Source: an uncultured Pseudomonadota bacterium
GTDB lineage: Bacteria; Pseudomonadota; Alphaproteobacteria; Rs-D84
Direction: 5' to 3'
NCBI GenBank assembly: GCA_902798205.1
Contig: CADBVV010000006.1
Coordinates: forward strand, 1 to 59,589
Length of the DNA: 59,589 nucleotides
Of this stretch, positions 2-55,395 are shown piece after piece. Both the position numbers and the translations under genes were made by a program. Under the pieces are notes generated by a model. The model was not told the DNA's origin. It saw only the letters and a program-made list of their open reading frames with translations, and ran no database searches. Numbering within the stretch: position 1 is the stretch's first letter; each line of letters opens with the position of its first letter.

Positions 2-3000
2 GTAGACCTGTCTGGTGTATTTGATTTGCCGGGCGAACCAGAAAATGTAACATTATATGCCCAATGGACCCCTATTTCTTACACAATTACATATAACAAC
101 ATGGACGATGCGACAAATTATGACAACGCCCCAACCGGATATACATTCGGTACCGGTGCAACAATTGATGGAATACCAACACGTGATGGTTATATCTTTA
201 CCGGATGGTGCACGGATGAAGAATTAGAAAATTGTGCATATACCCAAACAATCGGCACAGATGCAACCGGAAATAAAGAATTTTGGGCAAAATGGGAACC
301 TGTTAAATTCACATTAACCACAACAGAAATGGGTGAAAATGATGTGTACAGATTTGGTATATCTGCGTCTGGTAAATTTTATGTTGATTGTGGCGATGAC
401 GGTGTATTGCATACCTTTGATATTTATGGTATGGGTCCAAGGTTGACCGGCAATACAATCAATCGTGCTAGTGTGGGGCAAACTATCTATGGCTGTGTTT
501 ACACAAATGCCGCCGATAAACATGAAATAAAATTTAGTGGTGCTGCAGACGGATATAATCCGACAGATAATAATCAGTCATGGTATGCCGCAATTTCATT
601 AACTTTGGAAGCTGATGGTTATTCTACGGCAAACAAGATTGCGGGTATATCCGGATCATTGGGTGAAATATTTGGAACAATTGGCAATGGCGATACATTG
701 GCAACACAGCCACGATTTATGTGGACTCTTGCCGGTGCAATAAATATGCATGATACTGATATAGATGATCCAAATAATCCAGGTAAAAAATACGCAATAC
801 CACCAACATTATTTGATGGTGTTCATGGTGCCCCTGCACAATATATGTTTACTAGTACATTCTCTGCGTGCAGCGGACTGACTGGCACAATACCGGCGAC
901 ATTGTTTGCGGGTATATCTGGTGCCCCGGCACAGAGTATGTTTGCTGGCACATTCTTTAGGTGCAGCGGACTGACTGGCACAATACCGGCGACATTGTTT
1001 GCGGGTATACATGGTGCCCCGGCAAACAATATGTTTAGCAGCACATTCTGGGGCTGCAGCGGATTGACTGGTTCGATACCATCAACATTATTCTGTCAGG
1101 ACACTGACAATCCAAATGCAAATAATTGTATTTATGGTGCCCCGGCACAGACTATGTTTGTCAACACATTCTATGACTGCAGCAACCTTTCCGGACAAAT
1201 ACCAGCGACATTGTTTGCGGGTATACATGGTGCCCCGGCAGAGACTATGTTTTATGGCACATTCCGGGAATGCAGCGGATTAACCGGATTTACGGATGGA
1301 ACAACAACCACAACTTATGTTCCGGGGACATTCCTGAACACTATCGATACAAATACATCCGTATCATCGCAGGCAACAAATATGTTTGCTGGTACCGGTT
1401 TGAAATCGCCATGTCCGGCAAATATGTATGAATCAACGCGTGAACAATTTAACGATGCCGGTAAACCATGGTGTGATCCGTGTCCGAATGGATATACATC
1501 AATAAATGGCGAAAATACCACAATTAATCAGTGTTATACAACCTGCCCGTTGAATGATTCTTTGGGTGGGACATATGTTTCAGAATTGGGTGGCCATGCA
1601 TACTATGGTGTTGATGGCGATGATATATCAACATGTAAATATGCTTATACGATTACATATCATGATGGTGAAGATATTGTTGAATTGTCGCCATCGACCT
1701 ATACATATGGTGTTGGCGCAACAATAGATGCAGTATTAACACGTGAAGGATACACATTTGATGGTTGGTATGATAATTCTGAATTAACAGGTGATGCGAT
1801 TACCACTATATCAACCGATGCAATCGGTAATAAAGATTTGTATGCTAAATGGAATGTGAATACATATACGGTTACATTGGATAAAAATGCGAATGATGCA
1901 ATGCCAGGCATAACATCTGTGACGGTAACTTATGGTGCAGATATGCCAACAATTAATGCCCCAGAACGTAATGGATATGATTTTATTGGGTATTATGACA
2001 CCCAAGAATCAACGGATGGAACAAAATATTATGATCCTGTTTACAGGGGTGCTTTAGTAAGGGCCACTTCCGCACATGTTTGGGATAAAACATCTGGGGC
2101 GACACTGTATGCCCATTGGACACCGCGTTCTGGTGAAATTAAGTTGAAACATAACGATGGTACAGATGATGTTGAAACCATTTACACAATATTTGATACA
2201 GGTGTTTATAAAGATTCAGATCATACATTGGAAATGACGACTGTTGCGAATCCGGTAACCCCATTGACCAGAAATGGATTTACTTTTGATGGATATGTGC
2301 AATACGTGTTACATTCAATAGAACCTGGTAATTCTGGAAGCACGCAAGACTTTTATGTTGCCACACCAGAAGATTTGGCACGGCCACGATTGATTGATGC
2401 AAGCGGATATATAACCGCAGATGGTTTGGCACTTGGTAAAACTATTTACGAAACACGCCAAGGCACAATAAATCTGGCTTCTGTATGGAAAGCGGTGTGG
2501 ATACCAATCGAATACAATATCCAATACGTATTGTGCCCAGATGGTTCGGCTAATTGTGTTGCAAATGCATCCAATGACGACCGTAATCCAACAACATACA
2601 ACACAACACAAAATGTGACATTGTATGATGCATCCAGAAACGGTTATGATTTTGCAGGCTGGTATGACAATCCTGAATTAACTGGCAATGTAATCACAAC
2701 AATTCCACAAAATTCTGTTGGTCAAAAAACATTCTATGCATCGTGGACACCAAAACAATACACGATATCTTATCGTTGTTTTGATAATGGTGATGTTGTT
2801 CATGCTGATTCATTAATGTATGGTGATTCTTATGAATTTGTATCAAATACTGATGATCATAGAATCTGTCAAAGACCAGGTTGGATATTTGCAGGTTGGA
2901 CATGTTCTTATGTTGATGAAAATTCTGAATCTCATAATATATCAACAGATCCTGTGTCAAAATGGTATTGGACATATAATGTATCGTGTGTCCCAAGTCC

Positions 3001-6000
3001 ATGGGATGAAACATACTTTAATGTATCGTTTAATGCAAATTCTATGTATGTTGAAAACCCAGAAGCGATGTCTTCAATATCTTGCCCGTATTCAACCGGA
3101 TGTGCAATGCCAGAAAGTTTGTATGTCAGAAACGGTTATTTGTTCGATGGTTGGAAATCAAATGAAGATGAAATATATAATATTGGAGATACTATCAAAG
3201 AACAATTATCAGATGTAACAGTGTATGCACAATGGAACCCACAAGATAATATCCAATGTGTTGCGGGAACATATCTGAAGGCTGGTGATTTTGATAAATG
3301 TACAAATTGTCCTGTTGGATTTTATTGCCCTGGTTTTGAATCTGGTGAATATGTTTATAATGCAACAAAAGACCAAGGAATAAGATCATGTCGCGTGGAT
3401 TTTGGTTCAACAATTCCATCAGTAACGACAGACAGCAAGTGTGAAGATTCTGAAGAAATTGGCGGTTGTGCAAAATCTTTGTCGGATTGCTATGTCCCAT
3501 GTGATACAACATATGGTAATTATGTAATAGATTCAGAAAACAACAAGATTCGTTATGGCCAAATAGCAAGCGATGTTTGTTTGTACAAGGCTGATATAGA
3601 ATATAAAGGTTCTGAAAATTGTGATACACAAACATATCTTTTTGCCGACAGAACATCTGTGTCGTTGTGTGTGCCAAATGAAGTTCTGGGCAGAACATTT
3701 ATCGGATGGACAGATAATAAAGGAAATAAATATACTGATATTTCCGCGGACAATAATGAACGCCAAATTGATGACAATGTTCCTGAATCAGGTGTTGTCA
3801 CAATGACTGCAAATTGGGATATTGAACAATATATAATTTCTTATGATTGTGGTAATGGAAACAATATAGTTGTTGGTGATATGGAATATGACGATGATGT
3901 TGAATTGTTAGATTATGCACGTTGCGATAATCCAGGATATACACTAACAAAATGGAATTGTGGTGATAATTTTATTGATAATAACAAGATGCCAAATCAC
4001 GATGTTGAATGTACCGCAGAAACCACAGTTAATACTTATAACATAGAATTTAATGGCAATGGCGCAGATTCTGGCAATATGGATACCATTGAAAATATAT
4101 CGTATATTGCAGAACAACAATTGTCGGAAAATACATATGAAAGATCTGGTTATGATTTTGTCGGCTGGTGCGATAATAACACCTGCTCTAATCATGTTTA
4201 TGATGATAAAGAAATTGTTTCAAAATTAACACCAGATAACGATGCAACTGTTGTATTGTATGCACAATGGAAACCAATTCCATATACCATATCTTATACA
4301 ATACCATATGGTATAACTGTTGCTAATAAAACAACATACAGTAAAGAAACGCCAACATTTACATTAAATAACCCATCAGAACCTGGATATAAATTTAATG
4401 CATGGTGTACAAATGCAGAATTGACCGAAAATTGTGAATTAACAAAGACCATAGAACAAGGTTCAACAATTGGTAATTTAGCATTCTTTGCAAGCATGGA
4501 ACCAATTGAATACACCATAACATATAAATTCAAGGATGTTGATGGTGTTGTTCATGATATATCAGATATGTTTGAAAATCGTTATACAAAAAGAACTGTC
4601 GGCCAATCTGTATCATATCCTAAGAAAGCAGATGTTCATATTCCAAACTATAATTTTGTAGCATGGTATAATAATTCGAATCTTACAGGTGCTTCTGTAA
4701 ACGGTGTCGCCGCCAGTGTGACAAGTAATATGACGGCGTGGGCAAAGGTTACGGCTTTGTCTTGTGGCGTAAACCAGTATATTGAAGAAGGAGTATGTAA
4801 AGATTGCCCTGCCCATTCATCAAGCGATGGTGCATTAGCAACAGAATGCGTATGTGATACGGGATACTATAAAGATGGTGACAACTGCATATCAAATACA
4901 ATAACATTAGATTGGAACGAAAACGGTGGTTCACAGATTGATAATGGTGTTTGTGAATACGGAACAGATTTGATTTTACCAGATGCACCTGTTCGTGATG
5001 GTTATGTGTTTGCTGGTTGGAAATTGGCAGATGGTACAATAAAGAATGCAACAGAAACTGTGGCGGCCGGGTGTGTTGAAAATTACATTGGTGTTACAAG
5101 TGGTGATTCTAACGTTATCGCTGCACAATGGAATGTGCAAAAATACACAATTAAATATAATTCAAATGGCGGAACAACATATCCACAAAAACAATATACG
5201 GTTAATTCTGCAGATATAATGTTGCCACAAAATGCTGTTCGTAACGGATATGAATTTGGTGGTTGGTATGCAAACGAAGATTTATCTGGTTCTGTTGTTG
5301 ATATGGTTGCGCATGGTTCAACAGGTAACAAAGAATTTTGGGCATTATGGAATGTTATAAATTATGAAATATCTTATAATAATGATGGTGGCGAATTTAA
5401 ATCTGGGTATGTACCAATCACAACATATAACATGAACAGTGATACAATTGCATTACCAACATCAGATGATATCGTGCGTGATAACTATGTCTTTGTTGGT
5501 TGGGTTGATGAAAATAATAATATTGTCACAGAAATTCAATCTGGTTCATCTGGCAATAAAGAATTAACAGCCCAATGGACGCATGAATCGTGTGAACAAA
5601 ATCAATTCTGGGATACAAACAGTGATATGTGTGAAGCGTGCCCTGCACATTCAACAAGTGCTGGCGGTATGGCCACACAATGTAATTGTGACAATCATTA
5701 TGTAATGAATAACAATACATGTGTTCCGAAATCTTATACAATCACATATTACTATAACGGTGGTACTTTGGCCGAAGGTTTAACGAATCCGCAAACATAT
5801 AATATTGAAATGCCAGAGACCGTTTTATATGCCCCAGAAAAAACAGATTATACTTTCAATGGGTGGCATTTGAATTCTGTAAATGGTGCGATTATAACAA
5901 ATATTTCTGGTGATATGATCGCATATAAGAACATCAGATTGTATGCAACATGGACCAAGAACCCAGATACCAGAACGATAACATATAATTGTAAAACAGA

Positions 6001-8341
6001 TAAAACAATTGAACGCGCTGGTTTTGTTGGTTCAAATGTAACTGTACCAACAACAGAAGAATGTGAAATAAGTACGGGCGATATAACGGGTTGGACATGT
6101 AATGGTCAAACATATACAGATACAATGATAATACAAAGCAATAATATAACATGTACACCTGTAATATCTTATGCAAATGTTGAATATAATATTATCTACA
6201 AAGGTTACGATACCGATGGTAATGAAATAGATTTAAGTTTCTTGGGGCCAACAACTTATACTGCAAGCAATGGTATCAGGTTACCAACGAAAAATCAGAT
6301 AAATGTACCAGGATATAATTTTGAACGTTGGTATTTAAAGTATAATAATTCTGTGTTCTCGTCATCTATAACTGGTTATGCGGCAAATGCTAATATCAGG
6401 GGCGCAAAAACATTCTATGCCAAATTTACTGCTGTGACTGTACATTGTGATCCTGGGTATTATTTGCCTGCAAATTCGACAGAATGTGCATTGTGTGAAG
6501 AATCTGGTATGTATTGTCCAGGCGGGGACTTTGTATATTCAGATACAATAGACAGTATAAACACTTGTGATGAAAATTATCCATTGTCTGATTCCGGTGC
6601 ACAATCGATGGATGATTGTTATAAACAGTGCGATGAACGTGAACATTATACGGTTGTTGGACATCAATACAGCAATGGTACTAATGATTGTGTTTATACA
6701 CCTGTTACTTATTATATTTATTATAATACAAACGGCGGAAATACCGTCGCGCCAACGGAATACAATGTTGAAATGGGTGTGATAACAGAATTGCCAATAC
6801 CAGAAAAAGCAAATAAAGATTTTGATGGTTGGTTTGATGCTAATGGAACGCAAATAACAGGTATAGATACTTCATTAGGTGCAGATATTACATTGAATGC
6901 CCGTTGGACACCGAAACCTTGCGATGAAAATCAATATGTTGTTGGTGAAGAATGTGTTGCGTGCCCAGAAGGTTTGTATTCAGATGGTGGTTTGGTGACA
7001 GAATGTGGATGCAAGCCGGGATACGAAAAACACACTTCCAGAATAAGCGAAATTTATCCTGCAAGCGGTGTTGTCATTAATTCTTATTCTGGATCTGGTA
7101 TGAATTGGCATATGGATGTTAAACCAGGAACTTGGGTGTCCGATTCTGCCGATGGCTTTGCAGAATGCAGATATAACCAGTCTGGGCCACTTCCTGGCGC
7201 TGTATGGAATGAAAACGATATTGTGGAACCTGGAAAATATTGTTGGTGCCGTATGGATTCACCATTTGAAACAAAATGGATATATTCTGGAATGAATAAT
7301 TCTTCAAGATGTTCAGAATTATGTGCAAACGATTGTGGTGCACGAAGCAAGAGTAATGGTGGGTTAAGAAGTGCTTTGTTTGACAGTGCGTATACAGATG
7401 GTGGTGCAGATTATGAAATAACAACATGTGAAATTATTACTTACAATATTACATATGTTGGATTAGAGGGTGCAACACATTCAAACACATTAACATATAC
7501 GGTTGAAGATGCTGATTTACAATTTAGCGCCCCTTCTGATCGTATTGGTTATGAATTTACAGGTTGGACAAAGGATGGGGAAACGGTCACAATCTTGCCA
7601 CAAGGAACAATTGGAGATATCACTTTGACTGCAAATTGGAAAGCAAAGACGATACATTGTGATCCTGGTTATTATTATCCTGGAAACAGTGAAACTTGCA
7701 CACAATGTGTCGAAGAAAACATTTATTGTCCTGGTGGTGATTATACTTATTCTGATACGCCAAACGGCAAAGAAAATTGCCCTGTGGAATATCCTTATTC
7801 TACAGATGGCATATCCTGCTATAATTCTTGTGTCGATCCAAATGTATCTGGTGCGATATATGCAGATGGCAGAGATACCTGTGATTATACATATCCAATA
7901 GAATATAATTTGGACGGTGGAGAATTTAATACTGTTTACCCAGAAACATATGAACACGGTGTTGGGAATTTGCCTTTGGCGACACCTGCAAAATCTGGTT
8001 ATGGTTTCTATGGTTGGTATGATAATCCAGAAAAGCAAGGTAATCCTGTGACCAGCATTGATACAAACAGGTATGGAGCTGTTGAATTGTGGGCAAAATG
8101 GGGGTTTGTATGTGAATCTGGTAAATGGCTGCGTTTGGGTGATGGTGATGACAGACTCTGCTTGTATACAGAAAAGCCAGCGGGCACAGTAATGGTTCTT
8201 GAGACAAGGGATAAACCAACGTATATAATGTTAACAGAAGATGAAGATGTTACTGTTCACAAGGGTTCTTCAAAGAAATTGCGTGTTGCAATTGGCAATA
8301 AAGTCTATAATGCCTATGATGCATCGGTGAATATGGACTAA
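2..8341 (+). CDS. Giant InlB-type repeat surface protein, 5' truncated by window edge
   Basis: The frame is open from the first bases of the window, so the N-terminus and any signal peptide lie to the left; about 2,779 residues are visible. About twenty copies of the Listeria-Bacteroides (InlB B-type, Flg_new) repeat run through it, each with a core like R-[DN]-G-Y-x-F-x-G-W followed by GNK-x-[LF]-[YW]-A-x-W. A separate block at nt 800-1290 has repeats of the form IPATLFAGIxGAPAxxMF with CSGLTG, resembling the BspA/DUF285 surface repeat. Cys-rich GCC-like modules (CDPGYY.P.....C..C....YCPGG) recur around nt 3290, 4780, 6450 and 7660. The last 75 or so residues form a domain also found at the end of the protein at 55396. 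Such repeats are known in adhesins and large secreted proteins. A role in surface attachment is inference. Confidence 0.9.
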   Translation, partial: VDLSGVFDLPGEPENVTLYAQWTPISYTITYNNMDDATNYDNAPTGYTFGTGATIDGIPTRDGYIFTGWCTDEELENCAYTQTIGTDATGNKEFWAKWEPVKFTLTTTEMGENDVYRFGISASGKFYVDCGDDGVLHTFDIYGMGPRLTGNTINRASVGQTIYGCVYTNAADKHEIKFSGAADGYNPTDNNQSWYAAISLTLEADGYSTANKIAGISGSLGEIFGTIGNGDTLATQPRFMWTLAGAINMHDTDIDDPNNPGKKYAIPPTLFDGVHGAPAQYMFTSTFSACSGLTGTIPATLFAGISGAPAQSMFAGTFFRCSGLTGTIPATLFAGIHGAPANNMFSSTFWGCSGLTGSIPSTLFCQDTDNPNANNCIYGAPAQTMFVNTFYDCSNLSGQIPATLFAGIHGAPAETMFYGTFRECSGLTGFTDGTTTTTYVPGTFLNTIDTNTSVSSQATNMFAGTGLKSPCPANMYESTREQFNDAGKPWCDPCPNGYTSINGENTTINQCYTTCPLNDSLGGTYVSELGGHAYYGVDGDDISTCKYAYTITYHDGEDIVELSPSTYTYGVGATIDAVLTREGYTFDGWYDNSELTGDAITTISTDAIGNKDLYAKWNVNTYTVTLDKNANDAMPGITSVTVTYGADMPTINAPERNGYDFIGYYDTQESTDGTKYYDPVYRGALVRATSAHVWDKTSGATLYAHWTPRSGEIKLKHNDGTDDVETIYTIFDTGVYKDSDHTLEMTTVANPVTPLTRNGFTFDGYVQYVLHSIEPGNSGSTQDFYVATPEDLARPRLIDASGYITADGLALGKTIYETRQGTINLASVWKAVWIPIEYNIQYVLCPDGSANCVANASNDDRNPTTYNTTQNVTLYDASRNGYDFAGWYDNPELTGNVITTIPQNSVGQKTFYASWTPKQYTISYRCFDNGDVVHADSLMYGDSYEFVSNTDDHRICQRPGWIFAGWTCSYVDENSESHNISTDPVSKWYWTYNVSCVPSPWDETYFNVSFNANSMYVENPEAMSSISCPYSTGCAMPESLYVRNGYLFDGWKSNEDEIYNIGDTIKEQLSDVTVYAQWNPQDNIQCVAGTYLKAGDFDKCTNCPVGFYCPGFESGEYVYNATKDQGIRSCRVDFGSTIPSVTTDSKCEDSEEIGGCAKSLSDCYVPCDTTYGNYVIDSENNKIRYGQIASDVCLYKADIEYKGSENCDTQTYLFADRTSVSLCVPNEVLGRTFIGWTDNKGNKYTDISADNNERQIDDNVPESGVVTMTANWDIEQYIISYDCGNGNNIVVGDMEYDDDVELLDYARCDNPGYTLTKWNCGDNFIDNNKMPNHDVECTAETTVNTYNIEFNGNGADSGNMDTIENISYIAEQQLSENTYERSGYDFVGWCDNNTCSNHVYDDKEIVSKLTPDNDATVVLYAQWKPIPYTISYTIPYGITVANKTTYSKETPTFTLNNPSEPGYKFNAWCTNAELTENCELTKTIEQGSTIGNLAFFASMEPIEYTITYKFKDVDGVVHDISDMFENRYTKRTVGQSVSYPKKADVHIPNYNFVAWYNNSNLTGASVNGVAASVTSNMTAWAKVTALSCGVNQYIEEGVCKDCPAHSSSDGALATECVCDTGYYKDGDNCISNTITLDWNENGGSQIDNGVCEYGTDLILPDAPVRDGYVFAGWKLADGTIKNATETVAAGCVENYIGVTSGDSNVIAAQWNVQKYTIKYNSNGGTTYPQKQYTVNSADIMLPQNAVRNGYEFGGWYANEDLSGSVVDMVAHGSTGNKEFWALWNVINYEISYNNDGGEFKSGYVPITTYNMNSDTIALPTSDDIVRDNYVFVGWVDENNNIVTEIQSGSSGNKELTAQWTHESCEQNQFWDTNSDMCEACPAHSTSAGGMATQCNCDNHYVMNNNTCVPKSYTITYYYNGGTLAEGLTNPQTYNIEMPETVLYAPEKTDYTFNGWHLNSVNGAIITNISGDMIAYKNIRLYATWTKNPDTRTITYNCKTDKTIERAGFVGSNVTVPTTEECEISTGDITGWTCNGQTYTDTMIIQSNNITCTPVISYANVEYNIIYKGYDTDGNEIDLSFLGPTTYTASNGIRLPTKNQINVPGYNFERWYLKYNNSVFSSSITGYAANANIRGAKTFYAKFTAVTVHCDPGYYLPANSTECALCEESGMYCPGGDFVYSDTIDSINTCDENYPLSDSGAQSMDDCYKQCDEREHYTVVGHQYSNGTNDCVYTPVTYYIYYNTNGGNTVAPTEYNVEMGVITELPIPEKANKDFDGWFDANGTQITGIDTSLGADITLNARWTPKPCDENQYVVGEECVACPEGLYSDGGLVTECGCKPGYEKHTSRISEIYPASGVVINSYSGSGMNWHMDVKPGTWVSDSADGFAECRYNQSGPLPGAVWNENDIVEPGKYCWCRMDSPFETKWIYSGMNNSSRCSELCANDCGARSKSNGGLRSALFDSAYTDGGADYEITTCEIITYNITYVGLEGATHSNTLTYTVEDADLQFSAPSDRIGYEFTGWTKDGETVTILPQGTIGDITLTANWKAKTIHCDPGYYYPGNSETCTQCVEENIYCPGGDYTYSDTPNGKENCPVEYPYSTDGISCYNSCVDPNVSGAIYADGRDTCDYTYPIEYNLDGGEFNTVYPETYEHGVGNLPLATPAKSGYGFYGWYDNPEKQGNPVTSIDTNRYGAVELWAKWGFVCESGKWLRLGDGDDRLCLYTEKPAGTVMVLETRDKPTYIMLTEDEDVTVHKGSSKKLRVAIGNKVYNAYDASVNMD
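868..1009 (+). repeat. DNA-level tandem repeat inside the giant surface gene
   Basis: A 49-nt stretch at 868-916 recurs exactly at 961-1009, a 93-nt (31-codon) period. Diverged copies follow near 1055 and 1190. They encode the CSGLTG-TIPATLFAGI surface repeat. The identity at silent positions suggests recent duplication or gene conversion. Confidence 0.85.
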
Positions 8342-28258: not shown

Positions 28259-28414
28259 TGGTGCGGGCAAAGGGAATGTAATTTCCCACTCGTTTAAACT
28301 CGTGGGCCCCTTTCAACTTCGTTTACGAACCCTTCGTTGCTTTCGCAACTCTATCGGGTTCTCTTCCGTCGTCGCTTGCCATAAATTAAACCGGTATAAA
28401 ACCGGTTGAATTTC
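28259..28414 (-). ncRNA. tRNA-linked structured element, copy 1 (after tRNA-Gly)
   Basis: This 156-nt unit directly follows the CCA of tRNA-Gly on the minus strand. It ends in an exact 19-nt copy (28259-28277) of the tRNA 3' end at 28415-28433. Its middle matches the unit after tRNA-Ser(CGA) at 55137. In tRNA orientation it has helix A (GTTGC-GAAA-GCAAC, 28336-28349), an outer pair GGGT/GCCC (28329-28332 with 28304-28307), helix B (AAC-GAA-GTT, 28315-28323), the strings GAAAGGG and CCCACGA, and then a hairpin GGGAA-ATTACA-TTCCC that resembles a T-arm with the normal loop replaced. It shows no long ORF. A terminator follows. It is probably a transcribed RNA or mini mobile element; the family is not one I recognise. 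Confidence 0.75.
28385..28410 (-). terminator. Hairpin immediately 3' of tRNA-Gly
   Basis: In tRNA orientation, AACCGGT-TTTAT-ACCGGTT then TAATTTAT. It looks like a weak terminator at the start of the tRNA-linked element. Confidence 0.5.
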
Positions 28415-28488
28415 TGGTGCGGGCAAAGGGAATCGAACCCTCGTCTAAAGCTTGGGAAGCTTTCGTTCTGCCATTATACCATGCCCGC
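28415..28488 (-). tRNA. tRNA-Gly (anticodon CCC)
   Basis: The 7-bp acceptor stem (GCGGGCA with TGCCCGC), anticodon stem AAAGC/GCTTT with loop TTCCCAA, and T-arm GAGGG-TTCGATT-CCCTT are all visible. The anticodon is CCC. The 3' CCA is encoded (28415-28417). The 3' end is duplicated 156 nt downstream. Confidence 0.96.
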
Positions 28489-55045: not shown

Positions 55046-55136
55046 GGAGATATGGCAGAGCTGGTTGAATGCGCGCGACTCGAAATCGCGTATAGTGGCA
55101 ACACTATCGAGGGTTCGAATCCCCCTATCTCCGCCA
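55046..55136 (+). tRNA. tRNA-Ser (anticodon CGA)
   Basis: Acceptor GGAGATA/TATCTCC, anticodon stem CGCGA/TCGCG with loop CTCGAAA, long variable arm, and T-arm GAGGG-TTCGAAT-CCCCC. The anticodon is CGA, reading UCG. CCA is encoded (55134-55136). The 3' end is duplicated 151 nt downstream. Confidence 0.95.
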
Positions 55137-55287
55137 TAAAAATTAAATTGCCATTTGGGCAATTTTATTTTTATCGTGAATATGACCTTGGGATTAGGCG
55201 CTACAACAAAGTTGTTGGGTTCGTGGCGAAGCCGAAAGGGACCCACGAATATAATGAGAGGGAATTACAATCCCCCTATCTCCGCCA
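55137..55287 (+). ncRNA. tRNA-linked structured element, copy 2 (after tRNA-Ser)
   Basis: This 151-nt unit starts right after the tRNA-Ser CCA. It ends in a 23-nt exact copy (55269-55291) of 55118-55140, covering the 3' half of the T-arm, the acceptor strand and the CCA. It opens with a terminator-like hairpin (AAATTGCC-ATTT-GGGCAATTT), then helix A ACAAC-AAA-GTTGT (55203-55215), outer pair GGGT/ACCC (55217-55220 with 55241-55244), helix B GGC-GAA-GCC (55225-55233), GAAAGGG, CCCACGA and a pseudo T-arm GGGAATTACAATCCC. Compared with copy 1 the helices keep pairing while bases change, a sign of conserved RNA structure. A T-run follows at 55315. Confidence 0.75.
55144..55172 (+). terminator. Hairpin immediately 3' of tRNA-Ser(CGA)
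   Basis: AAATTGCC-ATTT-GGGCAATTT then TATTTTT. It resembles a terminator placed at the start of the tRNA-linked element. Confidence 0.6.
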
Positions 55288-55298
55288 TAAATAAGGAG

Positions 55299-55322
55299 CG
55301 GTCCTCGTAACCGATTTTTTTT
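55299..55322 (+). terminator. Weak terminator after the second tRNA-linked element
   Basis: CGGT-CCTCGTA-ACCG stem then eight T's. The stem is short. Confidence 0.45.
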
Positions 55323-55395
55323 AAATAAAAAACACTTGCGCTATCCTATCAATTTTTTCTATGATAATATCATGTACAGGAAGAGAAAGGACAAA

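Follow-up and report, generated by a model that had tools for sequence, protein, structure and literature searches.

Putative Mobile Non-Coding Cassettes with tRNA-Matched Ends behind tRNA Genes of Gut Alphaproteobacteria

Two Related Units in the Window

The stretch of DNA analyzed here, which comprises positions 1 to 59,589 of contig CADBVV010000006.1 (assembly GCA_902798205.1) of an uncultured alphaproteobacterium and is referred to as the window, contains a 151-nt unit directly behind tRNA-Ser(CGA) and a sister unit behind tRNA-Gly(CCC), while its third tRNA, Ser(GCT), is without a unit. The tRNA-Ser(CGA) gene (55046–55136, plus strand; ARAGORN and Rfam RF00005) ends with the 18 nt of tRNA nt 59–76 (55119–55136). 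The unit (55137–55287, plus strand) stands behind this gene, as a preliminary description of this DNA had placed it, and consists of a cassette (55137–55269) followed by tRNA-Ser nt 59–76 in a second, exact copy (55270–55287). The cassette begins with a long, terminator-like palindromic hairpin (T1, 55137–55173), followed by a strand with partial antisense complementarity to T arm and acceptor of the adjacent tRNA (V, 55174–55202), helix A (55203–55215), the motif GGGTTCG (55217–55223), which is a sense copy of the 5' half of the tRNA T arm and forms the left edge of the core, and a core designated type I (55224–55269). Helix B (55225–55227/55231–55233), GAAAGGGA (55234–55241), helix D (55242–55246/55258–55262) and AATTACA (55263–55269) are found in this core. 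T2 (55288–55325), the terminator downstream of the second tRNA copy, resembles by eye the single terminator at an empty site of a related genome (G042, locus L222), while automatic alignment placed the pair otherwise, and T2 is probably the original terminator of the tRNA-Ser(CGA) gene.

The sister unit is located on the minus strand, where tRNA-Gly(CCC) (28415–28488; ARAGORN and Rfam RF00005) is followed by a cassette with the same parts (28277–28414), including GGGTTCG at 28332–28326 and a type I core at 28325–28277, and by an exact second copy of tRNA-Gly nt 59–76 (28259–28276). The terminal repeat behind tRNA-Ser is thus that of tRNA-Ser and not of tRNA-Gly, as the preliminary description had stated; its helices were also exactly as given, with ACAAC/GTTGT (Ser) versus GTTGC/GCAAC (Gly) in helix A and GGC/GCC versus AAC/GTT in helix B. 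Its claim that GGGAATTACA is shared exactly holds for the Ser unit, whereas the Gly unit has GGGAAATTACA, with one A more. A plus-strand open reading frame listed across the Ser unit (55052–55294) begins inside the tRNA, and the unit carries no integrase gene. Except for tRNA, no Rfam family reached its gathering score, and the matches at loose thresholds were all sub-threshold and unconvincing.

Anatomy and Core Types

Across the family the order of parts from 5' to 3' is T1, V, helix A, GGTTCG (again corresponding to the 5' half of the T arm in sense orientation), core, 18-nt tRNA copy and T2, and the gene-free units range from about 130 to 200 nt in length. Both window cores have the type I layout of helix B, GAAAGGGR, helix D and AATTACA. 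Several cores unrelated to type I occupy the identical slot behind tRNAs; in the window genome (labeled G000, where G denotes genomes compared and L fetched loci) they include type II at Arg-TCT and Arg-ACG, type III at Gln-CTG, Pro-CGG and Pro-TGG, type IV at Ser-GGA, and further cores at Val-CAC and initiator Met. The type names are our own labels, and the automatic typing is coarse.

Related arrangements were also seen. At L111, L183 and L186 behind tRNA-Gly(TCC), inserts of a further type, about 97 nt long, end with CGGT ahead of 18 nt that copy the tRNA exactly, while at L212 (tRNA-Asn of Rickettsiales bacterium Gsp477) the 3' end of tRNA-Asn is copied much as in a unit, but the body is a different one and is accompanied by an antisense stretch. 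Between the two species of L034 and L035, both loci behind tRNA-Met, the loop of the terminator hairpin reads AAAAA in one and TTTTT in the other, and does so in both copies within each species, an inversion that points to concerted change.

Copies of the tRNA 3' End and Empty Sites

The last 18 nt of the adjacent tRNA, with at most three mismatches, were repeated 60–480 nt downstream in 118 of 221 distinct tRNA contexts (92 exact and 26 near-exact copies, 22 anticodon classes, all core types pooled), a fraction that is not a prevalence, as the presence of units was the reason for fetching most loci; with the 18-mers of other tRNAs as control, the corresponding count was 14/1872. This bears out the suggestion that local tRNA sequence is captured. 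Comparison of tRNA genes with and without a unit in the window genome, where all tRNA genes found were checked, revealed an own 18-nt copy at 12 of 44: Arg-ACG, Arg-TCT, Gln-CTG, Gly-CCC, Leu-CAA, Met-CAT, Pro-CGG, Pro-TGG, Ser-CGA, Ser-GGA, Ser-TGA and Val-CAC. The left limit of the copy is sharp at 58|59, as 95 of 107 exact or near-exact copies share upstream only A58, a near-constant core base; at the right limit, 30 of 107 share nothing past CCA and most others extend briefly. Because nearly all tRNA genes seen encode CCA, capture of CCA from RNA is not readable in the sequence. The tRNA remains whole, since an exact copy of nt 59–76 follows the cassette.

Two aligned pairs of loci, L075 versus L264 (the empty tRNA-Glu locus of the window genome) and L031 versus L247, show the filled and empty states. 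In both, what distinguishes the filled from the empty locus is an added T1-V-helix A-GGTTCG-core with a further 18-mer behind it, and downstream of this second 18-mer copy stands the old terminator. As judged from these alignments, the pairs show cassette insertion at tRNA 3' ends, with a T1 that the cassette itself brings, and the same logic, together with the empty site in G042, identifies T1 of the Ser unit as putatively element-borne. Orthologous tRNA-Ser(CGA) loci are empty in several related genomes, including the close relative G147 and G042, and hold different core types in others. Insertion at tRNA 3' ends, one of two origins that the preliminary description had considered, is therefore borne out by the two pairs and by presence and absence at tRNA-Ser(CGA) across species; the other, an unusual duplication, fails in the form of simple tandem copying, because T1 and T2 are usually unrelated and the downstream terminator matches the empty site.

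At L020, L036, L052 and L059, tRNA 3' fragments without a full tRNA gene before them directly precede a unit, and it seems that the tRNA and the unit were separated by incoming ordinary integrative islands; such units would therefore be older than the islands. The L020 sequence contains, by eye, an open reading frame resembling a DNA cytosine methyltransferase.

Exchange of Cores between tRNAs

The cores of L122 (tRNA-His) and L209 (tRNA-Arg), which belong to one assembly, are 99% identical and share the left boundary at GGTTCG, whereas their V strands are 56% identical; the core of L030 (tRNA-Lys) is 91–92% identical to both. Twenty-five pairs of units behind tRNAs of different isotypes have core identity of at least 90%, with a mean V identity of 58%, close to the 50% background. 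Near-identical cores with unlike V behind different tRNAs indicate that the core moves as a module into tRNA-specific shells. We propose that V, GGTTCG and the 18-nt copy form this shell and that the core is an interchangeable mobile module, which may move by transposition or gene conversion. The notion of one element with differing host-matched ends, which had been considered unusual, thus holds even within one genome.

RNA Fold and Antisense Strand

For the covariation analysis, 64 distinct type I sequences were aligned to the model with 17 base pairs and compared with 500 shuffles. Paired cells amounted to 96.5%, versus 80.8% in the shuffles, 14 of the 17 pairs (including all 5 pairs of helix A) had changes on both sides, and no shuffle scored as high by any measure; when the partner strand was slid, pairing dropped to 37–51%. 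Because the alignment was fitted to the structure, which favors the structure, an anchored, alignment-free test was added. Helix D pairs 5–8 were formed in 0.99, 0.59, 0.50 and 0.78 of 76–78 distinct segments, above every shuffle (means of 0.73, 0.28, 0.29 and 0.36, respectively), and helix B reached 0.33 versus 0.14 in the shuffles. With the helix that involves the tRNA strand left out, G-U cells outnumbered A-C cells 20 to 6, so that folding of the sense strand is favored. These results support a conserved RNA fold of the type I cassettes, and the fold predicted from two copies has thus stood up with more of them.

The V strand of 72 type I units is predicted to form a more stable duplex with its own tRNA copy than with others (means of -13.2 and -10.9 kcal/mol), a preference that none of 2000 permutations matched, although the effect per unit is modest. 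The idea of type I as an antisense guide, complete in itself, to the entire tRNA 3' end was considered and rejected: the match is weak by the 18-mer test, and significance was reached only for the trend and for duplex energy. In type III the antisense stretch is long in six of eight units (score 10–18, others at most 8–10), with nt 59 as its limit; the stretch in L240, directly after T1, is the reverse complement of tRNA nt 59–76 over all 18 positions.

Distribution of the Family

A short pattern recovered a third copy, likewise located behind tRNA-Gly, in the genome of another species (G042), and the covariance model that the preliminary description had called for was built from these three copies (R1). 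It matches the Ser unit with E 1.3e-12 and the Gly unit with E 2.4e-22, both being among its own inputs. At E<=1, R1 had matches in 108 of 156 genomes of the genus, many with several copies or tandem copies, and the relatives found with it sit behind 20 different tRNAs. At the stricter E<=0.001, 67 of 201 genomes of the order were positive, in two genera within one family, and in a class-wide search the only positive among 385 Alphaproteobacteria genomes was the window genome itself. When about 85,000 species genomes were searched with a fixed pattern, 109 stretches matched, almost all of them from gut Alphaproteobacteria, the named Candidatus Enterousia included; together with the small genome size (PMC12306168), this makes it probable that the window genome belongs to Candidatus Enterousia. 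Two pattern matches outside this group, L114 and L136, look like chance, with no tRNA within 900 nt.

The exact core pattern was found neither in viral contigs nor in phage and plasmid records. A literature search on Enterousia, tRNA-end repeats and bacterial primer-binding sites, with many journals outside its coverage, yielded nothing relevant; on this and on Rfam rests the statement that we found no described family of such tRNA-end cassettes. All the evidence is comparative and comes from metagenome assemblies. Some contigs may contain assembly errors at tandem repeats, but independent assemblies give the same picture. Elsewhere, the window contains an open reading frame of 2771 codons (26–8341, plus strand).

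Possible Origins of the Cassettes

Based on these comparisons, the unit behind tRNA-Ser(CGA) probably belongs to a family of small, mobile, non-coding cassettes whose insertion sites are tRNA gene 3' ends, and the mobility of the cassettes is well supported. As to how they move, a recombination enzyme supplied in trans would act at the tRNA T loop (58|59), and 18 bp would be copied from the target tRNA at insertion; this is offered as a possible mechanism rather than a probable one. Several points weigh against mobility of this kind. Units already in place could have exchanged cores by gene conversion, and the nearest relative often stands behind the same tRNA (59/116), which means that inheritance, or a lock to a single tRNA, accounts for some units. 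Single-sequence folding is modest (z of -2.0 for the 150-nt Ser sequence, -0.8 for its 112-nt part and -3.2 for Gly), and the type I antisense strand is weak and imperfect. No responsible enzyme was found, and the genomes compared are assemblies of different species.

The cassettes could also be miniature integrative elements that a T-loop (class II) tyrosine integrase would mobilize in trans; each lineage would be locked to a tRNA by its own copy of nt 59–76, and cores would be swapped between lineages by homologous recombination. An identity block that spans T loop to 3' end is typical of class II (PMC1762012), V is more alike between units at one tRNA, the 59/116 same-tRNA neighbors would be expected, and ordinary islands also seem to use the tRNAs concerned (L020, L036, L052 and L059). 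This explanation is nevertheless doubtful: the class II element of mycobacteriophage Ms6 requires 100% identity over a 26-bp core including the T loop (PMC1762012), whereas the left side of the distal cassette site is TTACA and not TTCGA, unrelated core types end differently, and the units have no integrase inside. The main rival outside mobility is a functional host RNA, for instance in tRNA processing or levels, that is spread by duplication and concerted evolution, with the tRNA match kept by selection. The strong covariation, the sense-strand G-U bias and the persistence of exact 18-mers where T1 and T2 no longer look alike would fit such a role, which we consider unlikely given the patchy occurrence (48 of 156 genus genomes without a match at E<=1; 12 of 44 tRNAs occupied in the window genome, and the same tRNA empty in close relatives) and the existence of truncated or decayed 18-mers.

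The layout and the antisense strand of type III also recall tRNA-primed retroposition, in which the 18-nt tRNA complement after T1 would serve as primer-binding site and the tRNA would be captured by reverse transcription: the order is T1-antisense-body-T2, and the complement has its limit at nt 59 in six of eight units and is perfect in L240. Reverse transcriptases were, however, found in only 48 of 147 genomes and in neither of the element-rich G035 and G016, and that of the window genome (L039:910–2382, G000:C4) is of the AbiP2 defence type (PADLOC, E 4.7e-164). The m1A58 methyltransferase (PF08704) was absent from 40 of 40 genomes, so that there is no known stop at nt 58. We regard retroposition as improbable, and equally so a more general RNA-mediated spread, in which the core RNA would enter the tRNA T loop, capture the 3' half and be copied to DNA beside the tRNA gene; if this were true, each jump would rebuild the ends from the tRNA met. 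Least credible is a non-autonomous element of the IS200/IS605 type that would rely on hairpins and on a site resembling TTAC. In the unit, GAAAG adjoins a hairpin that in turn adjoins TTAC, an arrangement similar to the ends of IS608, but IS608-type insertion is not known to duplicate 18 bp, and with Y1 transposase in 2 of 147 genomes, and none in G000, the idea is largely refuted. Beside the AbiP2-type gene, L039 contains a tyrosine recombinase open reading frame (148–732), and the two are likely part of a defence island.

Whatever their route, these are gene-free units that would remake both ends to fit the host tRNA, in genomes of about 1 Mb from which extra DNA usually goes. The cassettes make target-copied ends at tRNA genes testable and point to an unrecognised recombination or RNA-copying activity, and the many empty and filled pairs with interchangeable cores are a natural experiment. 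If they are host RNAs instead, they would represent a large unrecognised class of tRNA-linked RNA.

Comparison with Known Systems

Like the structured RNAs in Rfam, the cassette is a covarying multi-helix RNA, but unlike them it belongs to no family at threshold except through its tRNA. LTR retroelements carry a primer-binding site, a tRNA-complementary stretch after a repeat, and the type III cassettes have the 18-nt complement of tRNA nt 59–76 in the same place; unlike LTR retroelements, the cassettes have no LTR body, reverse transcriptase is not generally present and no m1A58 enzyme was found. With bacterial MITEs and similar small mobile sequences (PMC2229807), the cassettes share short, non-coding and foldable sequence that is presumably moved in trans; MITEs have fixed ends and scattered targets, whereas the ends of a cassette follow the tRNA behind which it sits, and almost every site is a tRNA 3' end. 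The cassettes resemble class II tRNA integrase elements such as Ms6 (PMC1762012) in that they insert at the T loop and rebuild the gene with a tRNA copy from T loop to 3' end, the identity block extending towards CCA. An integrase of their own is not encoded in units of about 150 nt, although a helper in trans is possible. In agreement with the earlier remark on ordinary tRNA-targeting integrases, Ms6-type elements have a fixed att core, span kilobases and encode an integrase (PMC1762012), whereas no fixed core identical to all targets was found among the cassettes: these are gene-free units of 130–200 nt in which one core, at least 90% identical between copies, is joined to different tRNA ends.
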